Positions 5,564 to 44,969 of a DNA stretch of 64,000 nucleotides are shown piece after piece. Origin of the DNA: Arhodomonas aquaeolei DSM 8974 (lineage in GTDB: Bacteria > Pseudomonadota > Gammaproteobacteria > Nitrococcales > Nitrococcaceae); the NCBI RefSeq assembly GCF_000374645.1, contig NZ_KB894807.1, forward strand, positions 1-64,000, in the 5' to 3' direction. The position numbers were made by a program, and so were the translations under genes. The notes below the pieces were generated by a model. The model was not told the DNA's origin. It did not search any database and saw only the letters and a program-made list of their open reading frames with translations. Each line of letters starts with the position of its first letter. Within the stretch, counting starts at the first letter, position 1.

Positions 5564-5720
5564 ATTTAACAGTGATTAGGTAGCGCGCACGGATATTCAA
5601 TAAACGTGCGCGCACGATATTGCAGGCTGCGGGCTTGCGTTTTCCACTGTAACCTACTGATTTTATAGACCATCCGTCTCCGCGCCGCCAGGCCTGCCGC
5701 AATATCGTGCGCGCAGTTTG
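5564..5720. other. attI-like site with iterated integrase-binding-like repeats
   Basis: Cassette 1 begins at GTTAAAT (minus strand, 5570-5564), a good GTTRRRY core, which places the recombination point here. Next to it are three copies of a GCGCGCACG(G)ATATT motif: two direct copies at 5583-5597 and 5609-5622 and one inverted at 5702-5715. The last two form a 17-bp perfect inverted repeat. In studied integrons attI contains the core plus direct-repeat integrase sites, so this arrangement fits, but binding is inferred. Confidence 0.6.
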
Positions 5721-5746
5721 AGTCCGCGTCATTGATACTGTATATA
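5718..5746 (+). promoter_or_regulatory. Promoter of the integrase gene remnant
   Basis: TTGAGT (5718-5723) and TATATA (5741-5746) are separated by exactly 17 bases and point to the ATG at 5776. The -10 box lies inside the LexA operator. Confidence 0.6.
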
Positions 5747-5753
5747 TATACAG
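5738..5753 (+). promoter_or_regulatory. LexA (SOS) box
   Basis: CTGTATATATATACAG is a perfect CTG-N10-CAG LexA operator with the alternating TA core of the gammaproteobacterial consensus. It overlaps the -10 of the integrase promoter, the position known for SOS-controlled integron integrases. Confidence 0.9.
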
Positions 5754-5775
5754 TATTCAACATGGAGGTGATGTC

Positions 5776-5946
5776 ATGGACTCGACACGCAAGCGCCGGC
5801 TGATGGATCAGGTCCGCCGGGCGTTGCGGGTGTTCCTCGAATACCTGGCGGTGGAGCGCAAGGTGGCCGCGGCGACTGCGTCGGTGATAGCGGATTCGGG
5901 AGACACCCTCTCCCCCAGCCCCTCTCCCGTGAAGGGAGAGGGGTGA
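5776..5946 (+). pseudogene. intI: Integron integrase remnant
   Basis: The open frame begins MDSTRKRRLMDQVRRALRV, matching the start of integron tyrosine recombinases (LLDQVR...), then jumps to FLEYLAVERKVAAAT, matching the segment near residues 60-75 of IntI (FLTHLAVERxVAxxT). About 40 residues between them are missing, and after AAAT the frame enters the 114-bp repeat array and stops at 5944-5946. The catalytic R-H-R-Y domain is absent, so the protein would be inactive. GGAGGTG lies 7-13 bases before the ATG. Its position and direction relative to the attI and cassettes, and the SOS promoter, support the identification. Confidence 0.8.
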
Positions 5947-6300
5947 ACAGTGGGTCGCGCCTTGCTGGGGCGGGCCGGTCGTTCGGCTGCCGGGTGAGTG
6001 TGTGCGGATTCGGGCGACACCCTCTCCCCCAGCCCCTCTCCCGTGGAGGGAGAGGGGTGAACAGTGGGTCGCGCCTCGCTGGGGCGGGCGGGTCGCTCGG
6101 CTGTCGGGTGAGTGCCTGCGGATTTCGGGGACGCCCGCTCCCCTGGCCTCTCTCCCTTGCAGGGAGGGGGGTGAACGGCGGATCGCGCTCTGGTGGGGCG
6201 GACGGGCTGATCGGCTGCCGGGTGGGTGGGTGCGGATTTCGGAGAGCCCCTCTCCACCGGCCCCTCTCCCTGAAGGGAGCGGTGAGCGGCTGCTCGGCAG
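5890..6300. repeat. Tandem array of 114-bp GC-rich repeats
   Basis: GCGGATT(T/C)CGGG recurs at 5890, 6004, 6118 and 6232, an exact 114-bp period with a partial fourth unit. Each unit holds a palindrome of the type CCCTCTCCC...GGGAGAGGG followed by a GGTCGCGC / GGGCGG spacer. The sequence type (CTCTCCC palindromes) is widespread in intergenic DNA of GC-rich gammaproteobacteria. The array has interrupted intI. Open frames across it on both strands are repeat artefacts. The remainder to 6475 shows no gene. Confidence 0.88.
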
Positions 6301-6421
6301 TCTGTCCACCGGGGACTGGCGTCCCCCGGCTAGTTGTGCGCGCTGCCGTCCGTGGCTGGTGTCCATTCCCTCATCCCCTCACCCCTCGGCGTGCCGGCGC
6401 ACGCCCGGTTAGCTCAAGGCT

Positions 6422-7296: not shown

Positions 7297-10200
7297 TCAG
7301 AAACGGCCGTAGTAGCCTTCCTTGAGGGCGTCGTAGAGGTTCGCCGCGGTGTGGATCTCGCCGTCGTACTCCACCTCGTCGCCGCCCTTGGCCTCGACGA
7401 CGCTGCCGTCATCGAGCACGAAGCGGTAGGTGGTGTTGGCGAGGTCGCTGTCCTTGACGAGCACGCCCTGGAACGCCTCCGGGTTGAAGCGGAAGGTGGT
7501 GCAGCCCTTCAGCCCCTGCTCGTAGGCGTAGCGGTAGATGTCCTTGAAGTCCTGGTACGGGTAGTCCGTGGGGACATTGGCCGTCTTGGAGATCGAGGAG
7601 TCGATCCAGCGCTGCGCGGCGGCCTGGATGTCGACGTGCTGCTTGGGCGTGACGTCGTCCGCGGTGATGAAGTAGTCCGGGAGATTGCGCGTCTCCGGAT
7701 CGGTGCTCGGCAGCGCCTCCGGGTCAACGAAGTAGCGGTACGCGAGCAGCTCGAAGCTGTAGACGCCCACGCTTTCCTTGGACTTTTTGCCCTCGCGGAT
7801 GACGTTGCGCGTGTAGTGATGCGCGAAGCTCGGCTCGATGCCGTTGGCGGCGTTATTCGCCAGCGACAGCGAGATCGTGCCCGTGGGCGCGATGGAGCTG
7901 TGGTGGGTGAAACGCGCGCCGCGCTCGGCGAGCTCGTCGACGAGCTCCGGCTCGGCCTCGGCCACGCGCTGCATGTAGCGGCTGTAGCGCGCCCACAGGA
8001 CCTTGCCGGCGATGGTGTCGCCCGGGGCGTAGCCGTCCTTCTCCATCTCCGGGCGCTTGGCGAGCATTTCCCTGGTGACGGTGAACTCCTCGTCCATGAG
8101 CGGCGCCGCACCCTTCTCGTCCGCCAGCGACAGGCCGGTGCGCCAGCCCTCCAGCGCCATCTCCTTGGCGGCGCGCTCGGTGAACTCCAGCGAGGCCTCG
8201 TCGCCGTAGCGCATGCGCAGCATGGTCAGTGTCGAACCCAGGCCGAGGAAGCCCATGCCGTGGCGGCGCTTGCGCATGATCTCCTCCTGCTGCCTGGGCA
8301 GCGGGAGGCCGTTGATCTCCACCACGTTGTCGAGCAGCCGCGTGAAGATGCTCACCACCCGGCGATACTCCTCCCAGTCGAAGTGAGCCTTCTCGGTGAA
8401 GGGCTCGCGCACGAACTTGGTGAGGTTGATCGAGCCGAGCAGGCAGGCGCCGTAGGGCGGCAGCGGCTGCTCGCCGCAGTTGTGGGCGTGCAGGCCGTTG
8501 GCATCGAAGGTGTTAATCCCCGGCACCTGGACGTCATAGACGTCCTCCACGCCGTCGTCCTCGACACCCGTGACGCGGGCGACGAAGCGCTCCCGGTTCA
8601 GCCGCCGCGAGTAACTGTCGAGCAGCGCGTCGAGGCGGCTCATCTTGTCGCTGTCAGAAAAACCGATCCGCTCGCGGAACCGGGCGATGCCCTCGCCGGC
8701 GAGGACCAGCTCATGCTGCGGCCGGATGGCGTAGTCCGCGTGGCCGCCACGGCCGTCGGGCATGCGCGCCGCGTTGGCACGGCGGCGGTCGCGGTAGATC
8801 GTCGCCGTAATGCCCAGGCGCAGGAGCATCCGCTGAACGGCCTCGAGACGCGAGAGATCGGACTGGGCGAGCCGCACGCTCACACCCTTCGCCTGGGTGC
8901 CCTGCACGGAACCATCCGCGTCGAACAGGCCGCGCAGGAAACCGCGATAGCCATCGCTCGATGCCTGCTCGAGCGCCGGGGTGATCGCCTTGTCGCCGGG
9001 AGACATGCCGAGCGACTCCGCGAGCTGCTTGAGTGCACCGAGCGCAAGGCGATACTCGCCACGGCCGGCGACCTGCTGCCAGCCCGCGAAGTCCGCGCGG
9101 TGCGGGAGCGTCCCGGCGGCGCGCATGCCGGCGTCCATCACGGCACGGGCGCCGGCGCTCAGCCCGCCCTCATCGCCGTTGCCGACGGCGGCCGACTCCC
9201 ACACGGAAAGCACGGCCTTGTCCGCCTTGAGCGTGCCGTCGCCCACGAGCAGGCCAAGGAGGTAACCCTCGTCCTCGTTGACGGCACCGCCCCACTCGGC
9301 ATTGTCGCGGTGATCGTTGAGCAGCACCCGGTCGCCGGCACGGAGCTCGCCGGCGGCGCACCATTCCGTCTCGGTGGTGTAGCGGGTGAAGCGGCTCACG
9401 CGGCGCACGCGGTGGTCCTCGGTGAGCCGAAGGCTGTAGCCCTCTGCGGTCTGCAGCCGCACGACCGGTTTGGTGGCCGTGCGGAAGAAGCCCTCCTCGC
9501 CGGAGGCATGTGCCTGTCCGTCGACCCGGGCGACGAACGAGCGGCCGATGAGATTGCGCACCTGGCGCGGCCCCTCATCGGTCTGCACCCAGGTATCCGC
9601 CGTCACGCACGGGTTGGTGGCGCGGATCTCCTCGCAGAACCAGTTGTTGTTCATCTCGTTGACGCGGTCGATGAGGATGAACCCGGGCTCGGCGTAGTCG
9701 TAGGTGGAGGTCATGATCATGTCCCAGATGCGCTGGGCCTTGATCCGCTTGTAGATCCGGCAGGCGACGAGGCCGTCCTCGCGGGTGATGTAGCCCTCGC
9801 GCCGCGGCCACTCGCGCCAGACCACCTGCTCCGGGTCGTTGAGGTCGACGCCGTCCATCTCCGCCTCCTTGGGCGAGAGCGGGAAGGCGAGCGGCCACAT
9901 CTCGCCGTTCTCCACGGCCTTCATGAAGCCGTCGGTGATCAGCAGCGAGAGGTTGAACTGGCGCAGGCGCCCGTCCTCGCGCTTGGCGCGGATGAAGTCG
10001 AGCACGTCCGGGTGGCCGACGTCGAAGGTGGCCATCTGCGCGCCGCGCCGCCCGCCCGCGGAGGAGACGGTGAAGCACATGCGGTCGTAGATGTCCATGA
10101 ACGACAGCGGCCCGGAGGTGTAGGCGCCGGCGCCGGAGACGTACGCCCCGCGCGGGCGCAGGGTGGAAAACTCGTAGCCGATGCCGCAGCCGGCCTTCAG

Positions 10201-10581
10201 CGTCAGCCCCGCCTCGTGGACCTTGTCGAGGATGTCGTCCATCGAGTCGCCGATGGTCGAGGACACGGTGCAGTTGATCGTGGAGGTGGCCGGCTTGTGG
10301 TCCCAGGCGCCGGCGTTGGAGGTGATCCGCCCGGCGGGGATCGCGCCGTGACGCAGCGCCCAGAGGAAGTTCTCGTACCACTCGTCCCGCTTCTCGGGCA
10401 CCTCGACCTCGGCGATCGCGCGCGCGATGCGCTTGTAGGTGTCGTCCACGGTCTCGTCCAGGACGGTGCCGTCCTTGGTCTTGAGCCGATACTTCTTGTC
10501 CCAGATGTCCTGGGAGGCGGGCTGTATCGGGATCTCGTTAACGCTCTTGGGCAGCACGCGCACCTTCGCAGCGGAACTCAT
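7297..10581 (-). CDS. nrdJa: Adenosylcobalamin-dependent ribonucleotide reductase, intein-containing
   Basis: A 1094-residue precursor; after removal of a 377-residue intein the mature enzyme is 717 residues. It makes deoxyribonucleotides with an adenosylcobalamin-generated thiyl radical and needs no oxygen. Recognisable segments: PAGRITSNAGAW (about 82), TINCTVSSTIGDSMDDILDK (about 101, with a redox Cys), GRRGAQMATFDVGHPD, the active-site NP|CGEQPLPPYG split by the intein, and TGTISLSLANNAANGIEPSF. The start MSSAAKVRVLPKS is good. C-terminal functions appear to be carried by the downstream nrdJb. The upstream region carries an inverted repeat that might be an NrdR operator. The intein lies immediately before the radical-forming Cys, so activity depends on splicing. 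Confidence 0.93.
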   Translation of the reverse strand: MSSAAKVRVLPKSVNEIPIQPASQDIWDKKYRLKTKDGTVLDETVDDTYKRIARAIAEVEVPEKRDEWYENFLWALRHGAIPAGRITSNAGAWDHKPATSTINCTVSSTIGDSMDDILDKVHEAGLTLKAGCGIGYEFSTLRPRGAYVSGAGAYTSGPLSFMDIYDRMCFTVSSAGGRRGAQMATFDVGHPDVLDFIRAKREDGRLRQFNLSLLITDGFMKAVENGEMWPLAFPLSPKEAEMDGVDLNDPEQVVWREWPRREGYITREDGLVACRIYKRIKAQRIWDMIMTSTYDYAEPGFILIDRVNEMNNNWFCEEIRATNPCVTADTWVQTDEGPRQVRNLIGRSFVARVDGQAHASGEEGFFRTATKPVVRLQTAEGYSLRLTEDHRVRRVSRFTRYTTETEWCAAGELRAGDRVLLNDHRDNAEWGGAVNEDEGYLLGLLVGDGTLKADKAVLSVWESAAVGNGDEGGLSAGARAVMDAGMRAAGTLPHRADFAGWQQVAGRGEYRLALGALKQLAESLGMSPGDKAITPALEQASSDGYRGFLRGLFDADGSVQGTQAKGVSVRLAQSDLSRLEAVQRMLLRLGITATIYRDRRRANAARMPDGRGGHADYAIRPQHELVLAGEGIARFRERIGFSDSDKMSRLDALLDSYSRRLNRERFVARVTGVEDDGVEDVYDVQVPGINTFDANGLHAHNCGEQPLPPYGACLLGSINLTKFVREPFTEKAHFDWEEYRRVVSIFTRLLDNVVEINGLPLPRQQEEIMRKRRHGMGFLGLGSTLTMLRMRYGDEASLEFTERAAKEMALEGWRTGLSLADEKGAAPLMDEEFTVTREMLAKRPEMEKDGYAPGDTIAGKVLWARYSRYMQRVAEAEPELVDELAERGARFTHHSSIAPTGTISLSLANNAANGIEPSFAHHYTRNVIREGKKSKESVGVYSFELLAYRYFVDPEALPSTDPETRNLPDYFITADDVTPKQHVDIQAAAQRWIDSSISKTANVPTDYPYQDFKDIYRYAYEQGLKGCTTFRFNPEAFQGVLVKDSDLANTTYRFVLDDGSVVEAKGGDEVEYDGEIHTAANLYDALKEGYYGRF
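8479..9609 (-). other. Intein with LAGLIDADG homing endonuclease domain within NrdJa
   Basis: Intein residues are 325-701 of the precursor. It begins with Cys1 (CVTADTWVQTDEG), has a splicing block B TEDHRV with the conserved His, and ends HAHN followed by Cys+1 of the host enzyme. The endonuclease domain has two dodecapeptide motifs, GYLLGLLVGDG and GFLRGLFDADG. All splicing residues (Cys1, block B His, penultimate His, terminal Asn, Cys+1) are present, so splicing is expected. The site, inside NPCGEQPL, is a conserved insertion point used by inteins in ribonucleotide reductases. Confidence 0.93.
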
Positions 10582-10650
10582 GTGGCCATTCCCCCTGAAT
10601 CGGGTTGACAGATTCGAACAGTGGAGTAGTCAACGGCTTATGCCGTTTTT

Positions 10651-10698
10651 CCACAACATATAAACACGGCCATCCCCAGTCGGCCCCATATGTTGTGG
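10651..10698. promoter_or_regulatory. Inverted repeat upstream of nrdJa, candidate NrdR sites
   Basis: CCACAACATAT (10651-10661) and ATATGTTGTGG (10688-10698) are perfect 11-bp inverted copies about three and a half turns apart, 70-117 bases upstream of the nrdJa start. NrdR boxes occur in pairs with a CaAtAtatTGTG-like core before nrd genes; the match is partial, so NrdR is only the leading guess. No cobalamin riboswitch was seen in the region. Confidence 0.4.
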
Positions 10699-10780
10699 TT
10701 GGTACCGAAATGGTATACCAGAAATCGTCGCTGTCAACGCCGCGCCGGATGGCGGTGATGTGACGTTTGTGTACAGGTAT

Positions 10781-10925
10781 TTGACAGTAATAAACAAACC
10801 CTATACGCTTTGTACAACCTTACGGACGGGGTTGCGTTCAGAACGGTTGTCTCTTCCCTTCCTCGACAACGACGAGGAGCCGCGCAAGCGGCGTGGCCGG
10901 GCCTTCGGACCCGGCCGTTTTTTTT
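10781..10925 (+). ncRNA. Candidate small RNA with intrinsic terminator
   Basis: A TTGACA (10781-10786) with a weak TACGCT-like -10 at 10804-10809 (17-base spacer) is followed about 85 bases later by a strong intrinsic terminator (10895-10925). No upstream + strand gene needs this terminator, because nrdJa reads the other way. The transcript would be about 105-110 nt, with a GCCGC-GCAA-GCGGC hairpin just before the terminator. It holds no convincing open frame. It does not match 6S, tmRNA, SRP or RNase P signatures that I know. Confidence 0.45.
10895..10925 (+). terminator. Intrinsic terminator
   Basis: GGCCGGG...CCCGGCC stem with a TTCG tetraloop followed by eight T residues (10918-10925). 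A textbook Rho-independent terminator on the + strand. Confidence 0.85.
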
Positions 10926-11077
10926 GGTTCAGCGCAAAGCGGCGGGAGGCCCCGACCACGACCGGCGCCGCCATTCAGCCGGCAGGTTGTGCGCCGAAGG
11001 CATGCAACGTTTCGTGCTTTGCCAGAGGAACGCCGCATACGGCCTGGTGGCTGTGCCCGACCTACGCGGCAACGGGC

Positions 11078-11482
11078 AATGCGTACGGACCGGGGCGCTG
11101 CGGCAACCCGGTCCTGTCGGTTGCCAGGAGCAACCGATCTACCGGAACGAGACAGCGGGCATAACCGCACAGCCGTGACGTCGGGTAGGTCGGTTGCTCG
11201 AAGGCAACCGACAGCCAAGTGGCGGTATCGCCCGGTGTACCGTGGCGACACCCGCGCACGACCTCCGGCGTAACACCGCCCACGCGGCGTCATACCCCGA
11301 ACAATGCCCACGGACCGGGGCGCTGCGGCAATCCGGTCCTGTCGGTTGCCAGGAGCAACCGACCTACCGGAACGAGACAGTGGGCATAACCGCACAGCCG
11401 TGACGTCGGGTAGGTCGGTTGCTCGAAGGCAACCGACAGCCGAAGCGGCATATCGCCCGGCATACCGGCGCGGCAGCCCGTG
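11078..11482. repeat. Duplicated REP/BIME-like element, 225-bp period
   Basis: Two copies of about 178 bp (11078-11255 and 11303-11482), offset by exactly 225 bases and nearly identical over their centres. Each contains two inverted REP-like palindromes, GTCGGTTGC-N-GCAACCGA followed by CTACC, and GGTAG followed by GTCGGTTGC-N-GCAACCGAC. The pair in opposite orientation is a BIME-type layout. Open frames over this region on both strands are repeat artefacts; I see no gene between 10926 and 11556. Confidence 0.85.
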
Positions 11483-11556
11483 CACGCCATCCCGGCGCGA
11501 CACCCGCGGCCGCAGGCGTTACCCTTGCGCCTCAGCGAACTAGGGAGGGCGACGCC

Positions 11557-12912
11557 TTGGCAGGCACCACGCAGACCACGGCACACGAGCACTGGGGCTC
11601 CAGGCTGGCATTCGTTCTCGCCGCGGTGGGATCCGCGGTCGGACTCGGCAACGTCTGGAAATTCCCCTACATCACCGGCGAGAACGGCGGCGGCGCCTTC
11701 GTGGTGGTGTACCTGGCATGCATCGCGCTGATCGGCCTGCCCATCCTGATCGCCGAGATCCTGCTCGGGCGCCGCGGCCGCATGAGCCCGATCAACGCCG
11801 TGGCGGCGACCGCCCGCCGCGAGGGCCGCTCGCCGGCCTGGGCCGGGGTCGGCCTGCTCGGCATGGCCGGCTCGTTCGTCATCCTCTCGTTCTACAGCGT
11901 CATTGCCGGCTGGGCCCTCGCCTACGTCGGCCGCACGGCCACGGGCACCTTCGCCGGGGCCGACGCCGCGACGGTGAAGGCCGCCTTCGACGCGCTCAAG
12001 GCGAGCCCGTGGCAGCTCGTGCTCTGGCACACGGCGTTCATGGCGCTGACGGCGGTGGTGGTGGGCCGCGGGGTGCGCCACGGCCTGGAGCGCGCCGCCA
12101 AGATACTCATGCCCGGACTGGCGCTGCTGCTGGTGATCCTGATCGGCTACGCCGCCACCACGTCCGGCTTCAGCGCCGGCGTGGACTTCCTATTCACCCC
12201 GGACTTCTCGAAGCTCAGTACCCATTCCGTGCTGATCGCGCTGGGCCACGCCTTCTTCACCCTGAGCCTGGGCATGGGGATCATGATCGCCTACGGCTCC
12301 TACCTCGCTCCGGGGACCTCCATCGCCGGCACGGCGCTGTCCGTGGTGGTGCTCGACACGGTCATCGCGCTGATGGCGGGCACCGCGATCTTTCCGGTGG
12401 TGTTCGCCAACGGCCTGGAGCCCGCCGTAGGCCCGGGCCTGATCTTCCAGACCCTGCCCCTGGCCTTCGGGTCGATGCCCGGCGGTGCGCTGTTCGGGGC
12501 GCTGTTCTTCCTGCTGCTGACCTTCGCGGCGTGGACGTCCACGATCTCGCTGCTGGAGCCCACGGTGGAGTGGCTGCAGGAGCGCGGCCAGGGCCGCTGG
12601 CCGGCGACGATCAAGGCGGCGGTGACGATCTGGGCCCTGGGCGTGGCCTCGGCGCTGTCGTTCAACGTGTGGTCCGGCTACACGGTGTTCGGCCAGAACC
12701 TGTTTGGCGCGCTCGATTTCCTCACCGCGAACGTCATGCTGCCCCTCACCGGGCTCGGCGTCGCGCTGTTCGTGGGCTGGGGCATGTCCACGGCCAGCGC
12801 CAGCGAGGAGCTGGGCCTGGGTGAGACCCTGGGCTTCCGGCTCTGGCACCTGGCGATCCGCTTCGTCGCGCCGGTCGCGGTGGTGGTGGTGTTCGTCTAC
12901 AACCTGCTCTAA
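11557..12912 (+). CDS. Sodium-dependent transporter, NSS/SNF family
   Basis: A 451-residue integral membrane protein of the neurotransmitter:sodium symporter family (LeuT/MhsT relatives), which imports amino acids or related compounds with Na+. The family signature in helix 1 is complete: GSAVGLGNVWKFPYITGENG, with the unwound Na+/substrate site. About 11-12 hydrophobic segments follow to the C-terminus (VAVVVVFVYNLL), a bacterial-type length. The start is a TTG at 11557, with AGGGAGGG ending 7 bases before it; longer frames would run into the repeats. The substrate cannot be told. A GC-rich hairpin at 12973-12992 follows. Confidence 0.9.
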   Translation: MAGTTQTTAHEHWGSRLAFVLAAVGSAVGLGNVWKFPYITGENGGGAFVVVYLACIALIGLPILIAEILLGRRGRMSPINAVAATARREGRSPAWAGVGLLGMAGSFVILSFYSVIAGWALAYVGRTATGTFAGADAATVKAAFDALKASPWQLVLWHTAFMALTAVVVGRGVRHGLERAAKILMPGLALLLVILIGYAATTSGFSAGVDFLFTPDFSKLSTHSVLIALGHAFFTLSLGMGIMIAYGSYLAPGTSIAGTALSVVVLDTVIALMAGTAIFPVVFANGLEPAVGPGLIFQTLPLAFGSMPGGALFGALFFLLLTFAAWTSTISLLEPTVEWLQERGQGRWPATIKAAVTIWALGVASALSFNVWSGYTVFGQNLFGALDFLTANVMLPLTGLGVALFVGWGMSTASASEELGLGETLGFRLWHLAIRFVAPVAVVVVFVYNLL

Positions 12913-43310: not shown

Positions 43311-43532
43311 TGCAGTGACTCCACGAAACCGGTATCTGGATGCGCGTATTCAAATATACTCAAAGGGATTAAGCAACCCCATTTTTATACCCAATACGCA
43401 TTATCCGTGTCCGCGGGTCATGGGATGGCGCAATGCCCACCCCTCAAATTTTTCTTATGGTGCCGATAACATGTGCGTATAGGAATAGAACATACGCCGG
43501 GATCGGCGACACTGATGAGGAAGGGGACAGGC

Positions 43533-44969
43533 ATGCGCTGGTTGCGTCGAAACGATGCGGCGGAAGCCGCAGAGGAACGCCCGGGAGAAGGCGGCGAGCA
43601 GGAGCTGATGCAAAGGATTGCCGAGCGGACCGGCCGTCTCGGCATCGAGCTGGTGGATATCGCCGGCTCGGTGGAGAGCGTCAGCGCCCATGTCGATCAT
43701 GAGGCCGGGGAATTCTCGCGCCTGCGCGAGCTCGCCGACCGCCTCGCGGAGAACAATGAGACCGTGCGCACGGCCGCACACACCACGCAGGAGCTCGCCA
43801 GCAACGCAGCCTCCGAGATGGAGGATTCGCGGGCGACCATCGAGCGCTCCATCGATGACATTCAGGAGCTCGCAGGCACGGTCACGGAGACCAGCAGCGA
43901 GCTCTCCAGCCTCGACGAGGCCCTGAACCGGATCAGCGAGGTCGCCCGGGGGATAGCGGCCATCGCCAAGCAGACCAACCTGCTGGCGCTGAACGCCACC
44001 ATCGAGGCGAGCCGCGCCGGGGAGGCCGGCCGCGGCTTCGCCGTGGTCGCCGAACAGGTCAAGCAGCTCGCGGACCAGACCGGCGATGCCACCGGCGAGA
44101 TCGACCACACCCTCTCCGACCTGGGCGAACGGGTACGCAACCTCGTCGCCCGCGGTGAGGCGAGCCATACCCAGGCCGAGCGGGTGACCGAGGGCGCCCA
44201 GACCATCCGCCAGGTCATCAACACGATGACTGACACGGTAAGCAACGTCGATGCCCACGCGCGCGAGATCAGCACGGCGGTCGGAGCCATCGACGAACAC
44301 TGCGGCGAGACCGTCTCCGGGCTCAACGCGCTGACCGACGAGGTCAACGGTTCCGCGGAGAACCTGCGCCAGACCAACGAGCGGGTCCAGCGGCTCCTCG
44401 GCATTACCGAGGAGATCGTCAATATCACCTGCGAGAGCGAGGCGGAGACCCCGGACCACCCCTACATCACCACGGCGCAGGAGACCGCCGACGCGGTGAG
44501 CCGCGCCTTCGAGGCGGCCGTCGCCGCGGGGGAGATCAGCGAGCGGGACCTCTTCGACCGGGACTACCGGCCTATCGACGGGACCGACCCGCAGCAGTAC
44601 CTCAGCCGCTACACGGAGTTCACGGACCGGGTGCTGCCGCCGATCCAGGAACCGGTGCACAACGGCGACGAGCACATCAGCGCGTGCTGCACCACGGACG
44701 ACCACGGCTACATCGCCACCCACGCGCTGCACGTCTCCCACGCGCAGCGCCCGGGCGAGCCCCAGTGGAACGCGGCCAATGCGCGGAACCGCCGGATCTT
44801 CAGCGACCGGGTCGGTCTCGCCGCGGCCCGCAACCGCAAGCCGTTCCTGCTGCAGGTCTACCGCCGGGACATGGGCGGCGGCGAGTTCCGGCTGGTGCGC
44901 GACGCCTCCGCGCCGGTGACGGTCAACGGCCGCCACTGGGGCGCGGTTCGCGTCATCTATCGCCTGTAG
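43533..44969 (+). CDS. Soluble methyl-accepting chemotaxis protein
   Basis: 478 residues from the ATG at 43533, which has AGGGGAC upstream. No membrane segment. Residues about 25-330 are a methyl-accepting coiled coil with the hairpin tip [20 protein letters not shown] and [20 protein letters not shown]. The C-terminal 130 residues ([68 protein letters not shown]) look like a Cache/PAS-type sensor. Having the sensor after the signalling domain is an arrangement known from cytosolic chemoreceptors. Signal unknown. Confidence 0.88.

Follow-up and report, generated by a model that had tools for sequence, protein, structure and literature searches.

The segment at positions 10781-10925 (+ strand) of the window, the 64,000-nucleotide stretch analyzed here (positions 1 to 64,000 of contig NZ_KB894807.1 of Arhodomonas aquaeolei DSM 8974), is a candidate stand-alone small RNA (sRNA) gene, with a probability of about three in four by our estimate, its transcription being predicted from sequence anatomy. 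The sequence-only reading had proposed an orphan sRNA here, and this proposal is supported by the recurrence of the unit, divergent from nrdJ, in a related halophile of a different genus with a closed genome (G004), by sequence, and in Ectothiorhodospiraceae bacterium WFHF3C12 (G003), by layout; we retain the candidate status. In the proposed scheme, the RNA, about 105-110 nt long, would start near 10816 from a sigma-70-type promoter (10781-10809, +) that lies back to back with that of nrdJ, and would terminate within the T run, 10918-10925. The features of the locus are as follows.

7297-10581, - strand: nrdJ, class II ribonucleotide reductase with an intein, the divergent neighbor
10710-10737, - strand: nrdJ promoter-like site TTGACA-N16-TACCAT (promoter scan), back to back with the predicted sRNA promoter
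10770-10775, + strand: candidate operator TGTACA, lying 5' of the -35 box (motif counts)
10781-10786, + strand: -35 box TTGACA of the predicted sRNA promoter (read from the sequence)
10804-10809, + strand: weak -10 candidate TACGCT at a spacing of 17, agreeing with the consensus at 3 of 6 positions (sequence)
10811-10816, + strand: second candidate operator TGTACA, at the predicted start site (motif counts)
10816-10925, + strand: predicted sRNA of about 105-110 nt, beginning about 7 bases past the -10 box and stopping within the T run, as deduced from promoter and terminator; a homologue exists in G004
10850-10859, + strand: C/T-rich stretch, candidate seed, with a predicted unpaired probability of 0.57-0.94 per base; the G004 equivalent is pyrimidine-rich too
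10860-10878, + strand: hairpin 1 with the open loop ACAACGA (fold), belonging to the core CAACGACGAGG common with G004
10879-10892, + strand: hairpin 2, GCCGC-GCAA-GCGGC (fold), with pairs kept in G004
10893-10925, + strand: intrinsic terminator, stem-loop 10893-10918 and T8 10918-10925 (scan, strict script, sequence)

The two elements from which the sequence-only reading had started, the TTGACA box and the strong terminator, were both confirmed by direct reading, the terminator also by scan and strict script. A consensus scan of both strands of 9800-11800 gives 3 terminator-like sites against 1.3 expected, and the sole one on the + strand is 10893-10925. A strict script (stem of 7-14, at most one mismatch, at least six G/C pairs, loop of 3-8, at least six T), run over both strands of the whole 64 kb, picked out this site and no other. 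The unit possesses an intrinsic terminator of its own, one of the marks of a stand-alone sRNA gene. The about 100 bases between promoter and terminator contain no gene, and upstream on the + strand there is only the antisense of nrdJ, so that, as had been noted, no + strand gene in this region needs termination. The promoter is less clear-cut. The scan of 9800-11800 lists the nrdJ promoter and omits the site at 10781, because its -10 box is poor; an alternative -10 box, TATACG, agrees with the consensus at 4 of 6 positions at a spacing of 15. The hexamer TTGACA alone is no rarity (5 copies in the window against 10.7 expected), and three of these five copies fall within 10605-10786. The -35 boxes of the nrdJ and sRNA promoters are about 44 bases apart. 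The predicted fold of 10816-10927 has an energy that is ordinary for its composition (z -1.25; 23 of 200 shuffled sequences fold as well).

The case for conservation is carried by G004. At the same place upstream of nrdJ, this genome harbors a TTGACA box, a body related to that of the window and a terminator ending in a T-rich tail, and the distance from TTGACA to the start of nrdJ (or of its match) is 199 bases in the window, 205 in G004 and 281 in WFHF3C12. Local alignment of promoter, body and terminator between the window and G004 scores 62, which is reached by none of 2000 dinucleotide shuffles (maximum 50), and for the body by itself the score is 42, a value that 2 or 1 of 2000 shuffles reach, depending on which of two stretch settings is used; seven other loci from the family score 18-24. 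The longest run common to the two sequences is CAACGACGAGG. With a model built from the window alone, the one further match among 11 sources is the G004 copy (24.1 bits; E 2.2e-4 in 124 kb). In the model-fitted alignment, all five pairs of hairpin 2 are kept in G004, one of them changed on both sides, four of the six pairs of hairpin 1 are kept, and the terminator shows one two-sided change. This covariation lacks significance, being equalled in 128 of 500 shuffles, and two sequences cannot prove it; in the G004 RNA, moreover, the core can pair with bases further upstream in a competing fold.

Genome-wide searches did not recover this relationship. With blastn at E 0.001, the window and G004 copies are unlinked in either direction, and in a search of 54 genomes of the order, model R1 missed G004; the conservation case therefore rests on similarity combined with the identical place. 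Across 59 genomes (own included), blastn of the window element finds itself and four short places in three genomes; by eye, these lie within coding sequence, in frames that we take to be FolB-like in three cases and rpsA-like in one, and were rejected as homologues, being apparent chance matches. The G004 copy, searched by blastn against the 54 genomes of the order, finds only itself. Model R1 yields weak matches in four other genomes of the same 54 and at a second place in the window's own genome; the best of these matches, in G040, was dropped because it lies across coding frames and has no U tail. Across 23 genomes of the family, model R2 recovers the two sequences that it was built from, those of the window and G004, followed by four matches of 15.6-18.3 bits, one of which looks like a tRNA end followed by a terminator.

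WFHF3C12 represents a third genus, in the same family as the window, and carries, at the same place beside nrdJ, a TTGACA box and, like the window, a GGCCGGGC-type terminator. The body between them is longer and does not align to the window (1912 of 2000 shuffles score as high), and the 19.8 bits that the unit obtains under model R2 hardly exceed those of the four matches at 15.6-18.3, so this score is not taken as sequence evidence. We count this unit as a positional counterpart, its homology being unproven. Conservation in relatives, which the sequence-only reading had named as a check, thus holds for G004 by sequence and for WFHF3C12 by layout only, the body of the latter being unalignable. 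The upstream regions of nrdJ were inspected by eye for some members of the family; those read in Spiribacter, in Nitrococcus-like genomes and in G005 show no such unit. Among the relatives, Spiribacter salilacus (G012) and a Nitrococcus MAG (G013) belong to the family of the window. In a sample of 80 nrdJ loci, two of them with less than 500 bases upstream, the strongest terminator opposite nrdJ is that of locus L014; eight of the 79 others have weaker matches under loose rules.

Two TGTACA boxes flank the predicted promoter and suggest that it may be controlled by a regulator binding them. All three loci have TGTACA near the promoter (two copies in the window, one in G004 and three in WFHF3C12), compared with five of 79 other nrdJ upstream regions, each with one copy; this is a small sample, and the counts are uncorrected for base composition or kinship. 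The window and WFHF3C12 share a layout with one box before the -35 box and one after the -10 box, and G004 has the upstream box alone. The genome of A. aquaeolei has just one further pair of TGTACA boxes with a separation of 25-55 bases, and this pair lies, by eye, within coding sequence. The open-licence literature yielded no operator paper for TTGTACA with GntR.

The surroundings of the unit show several features of their own. The intein of nrdJ (7297-10581, -) contains a LAGLIDADG domain, with a splicing-domain match just under the cut-off, and open frames as long as 1135-1545 aa suggest that nrdJ has insertions in three relatives as well, G013, G002 and G007. Upstream of nrdJ (-), there are two NrdR-box-like 16-mers, CCACAACATATGGGGC at 10698-10683 and TGTTTATATGTTGTGG at 10666-10651, 32 bases from start to start; paired motifs of this kind are visible also in the relatives read. 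In Pseudomonas aeruginosa, each reductase promoter is reported to have two NrdR boxes (PMC4409342). On the other side, genome-wide intergenic repeats occupy 10979-11070, 11114-11241 and 11339-11443, the later ones being long palindromes, and a 979-base query over this repeat gap gives 74 matches in the same genome, itself included. At 5566-6412, long frames on both strands repeat an SLHGRGAGGEG-like motif; the region has the look of a repeat array, not of a gene.

Several other explanations of the locus have to be weighed, and two of them would make the unit a servant of its neighbors. The back-to-back promoters, with about 44 bases between their -35 boxes, and the way in which the unit stays next to nrdJ in all three genera although its far flank varies would fit a divergent promoter or RNA that acts in cis to tune nrdJ expression. 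However, the RNA does not overlap nrdJ, against the nrdJ leader it pairs only as well as shuffled sequences do (as good in 214 of 300 for the window, 175 of 300 for G004 and 223 of 300 for WFHF3C12), and nrdJ occurs without an sRNA-like unit in the Spiribacter and Nitrococcus-like loci read; we regard such a cis role as unlikely. On the far side, the placement between nrdJ and a sodium:neurotransmitter symporter (NSS) family transporter was borne out: this transporter, with its start between 11419 and 11557, is the next + strand gene, so that the unit could be a leader RNA, an attenuator controlling read-through into it. Against this stand the about 500-630 bases of repeat-rich DNA between the sRNA terminator and the transporter and a pairing with the transporter leader that is no better than in shuffles. 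Moreover, the far-side gene differs in all three genera: it is the + strand transporter in the window, a frame that by eye encodes a LacI-type regulator in G004 and an unrelated frame in WFHF3C12, the latter two reading in the direction of nrdJ, that is, opposite to the RNA; the stretches listed for these two genomes contain no far-side gene in the RNA's direction. The unit stays with nrdJ while the downstream genes change, which argues against attenuation and leaves it highly unlikely.

The other two explanations deny that there is a regulatory RNA. The weak -10 box, the ordinary fold energy and the presence of the unit in few genera would all fit a stray TTGACA that happens to precede a stray hairpin with a T run, but such a coincidence would have to involve the sole strict terminator in 64 kb and to recur with sequence similarity in G004, and we regard it as highly unlikely. 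The locus might also be a gene for a small protein, perhaps a non-stop one with its frame running into the terminator. A frame through the shared core (...NDE..R.KRR..) is present in the window and by eye similar in G004, and closed frames exist in G004 (30 codons opened by a TTG directly ahead of the predicted start site, with the stop preceding the terminator) and in the predicted transcript of WFHF3C12 (8 and 5 codons). The window itself has no closed frame: none of the five ATG, GTG or TTG codons that follow the -35 box ahead of the T run reaches a stop before the transcript end, so the terminator does not end an overlooked short gene there, an outcome that would have spoken against an orphan sRNA. 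In addition, the start of the G004 closed frame lacks a counterpart in the window, as do both WFHF3C12 frames, the conserved-looking frame lacks an ATG, GTG or TTG start in G004, and the window frame through the core has no Pfam match. A small protein gene here is accordingly highly unlikely.

Under the sRNA reading, the predicted RNA combines a C-rich stretch predicted to be mostly unpaired, the open ACAACGA loop and a stable terminator with a long U tail in a genome that encodes Hfq (103 bits against a cut-off of 27), a combination typical of sRNAs that act in trans by blocking ribosome-binding sites; for binding to Hfq, it is the U tail that is suggestive. From this anatomy, an Hfq-dependent trans-acting mode appears the most likely one and somewhat more probable than not. 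The C-rich stretch at 10850-10859 and the ACAACGA loop would pair, with the assistance of Hfq, with purine-rich ribosome-binding sites, and this pairing would block translation of target mRNAs in trans. The complement of the seed, with up to 2 mismatches, occurs at 6 places besides itself compared with 9 and 8 for a reversed control pattern. Three of these six are at ribosome-binding sites, those of an AbiTii-like protein, a methyl-accepting chemotaxis protein (MCP) and an inverse autotransporter; such sites are purine-rich anyway. The MCP gene near 43533 gives the best pairing of 67 starts in the window (-27.0 kcal/mol): its ribosome-binding site at 43517-43533 (+) is nearly complementary to the C-rich stretch, and 13 of 1000 shuffled seeds match this pairing. 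As a conserved target, MCP fails, the G004 orthologue being paired at least as well by 983 of 1000 shuffled seeds. A search for the inverse autotransporter in G004 and G003 found no homologue; it was run without a control, and its empty answer shows little.

None of the families compared accounts for the RNA. An Rfam search, suggested at the outset, gave no match at gathering scores across the 64 kb, and permissive runs produced sub-threshold matches only. The best of these, SorX (RF02784), scores 22.3 bits against a cut-off of 46.6, short of membership, and SorY scores 13.2 bits against 111. Like SorX, the predicted RNA is short and pyrimidine-rich at its start, has a hairpin and closes with a GGCCGGGC-type terminator; unlike an accepted member, it scores below threshold, and much of the match lies within the terminator. 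The unpaired C-rich stretch could mask ribosome-binding sites, as in alpha-r14 and cuckoo RNAs such as NfeR1, but those carry CCUCCUCCC in each of three hairpins (PMC10746234), whereas the window RNA has one CUCUUCCCUUCCUC stretch; CCUCCUCCC is absent from 10816-10925, which places the RNA outside the cuckoo group as defined there. A parallel in architecture is offered by the orphan-terminator sRNAs of Sinorhizobium meliloti, described in PMC2573895 as free-standing intergenic units with a promoter and an intrinsic terminator that are kept in relatives. Unlike the window RNA, which is known from sequence and belongs to another sequence family, the S. meliloti set was tested by Northern blot or microarray (PMC2573895), and these experiments detected 14 of the 18 intergenic candidates that had been selected. 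By analogy, this rate would be a fair prior for such anatomy, although it comes from another bacterial group and a hand-picked set.

A search of the open-licence literature on nrdJ, small RNAs and NrdR found no study of this RNA, and one for Ectothiorhodospiraceae with sRNA and Hfq likewise returned none. For Arhodomonas and small RNAs, the passages of PMC3832224 that were found mention small RNAs only in a remark on another genome. If transcribed, the element would accordingly fall in a bacterial group without an sRNA study in the open-licence literature searched. It would be an sRNA gene outside the Rfam families that has a homologue and a candidate operator: it is ordinary in kind, a bacterial small regulatory RNA, and new as a member. 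It also illustrates how a lone strong terminator can flag an sRNA gene in a GC-rich genome. As a speculation to which we attach a low probability, the unit could belong to a fast-evolving sRNA family residing beside nrdJ in the large-genome members of this halophile family, under a dedicated regulator acting via paired TGTACA operators, and might tie nucleotide supply or stress to the synthesis of chemoreceptors and surface adhesins.
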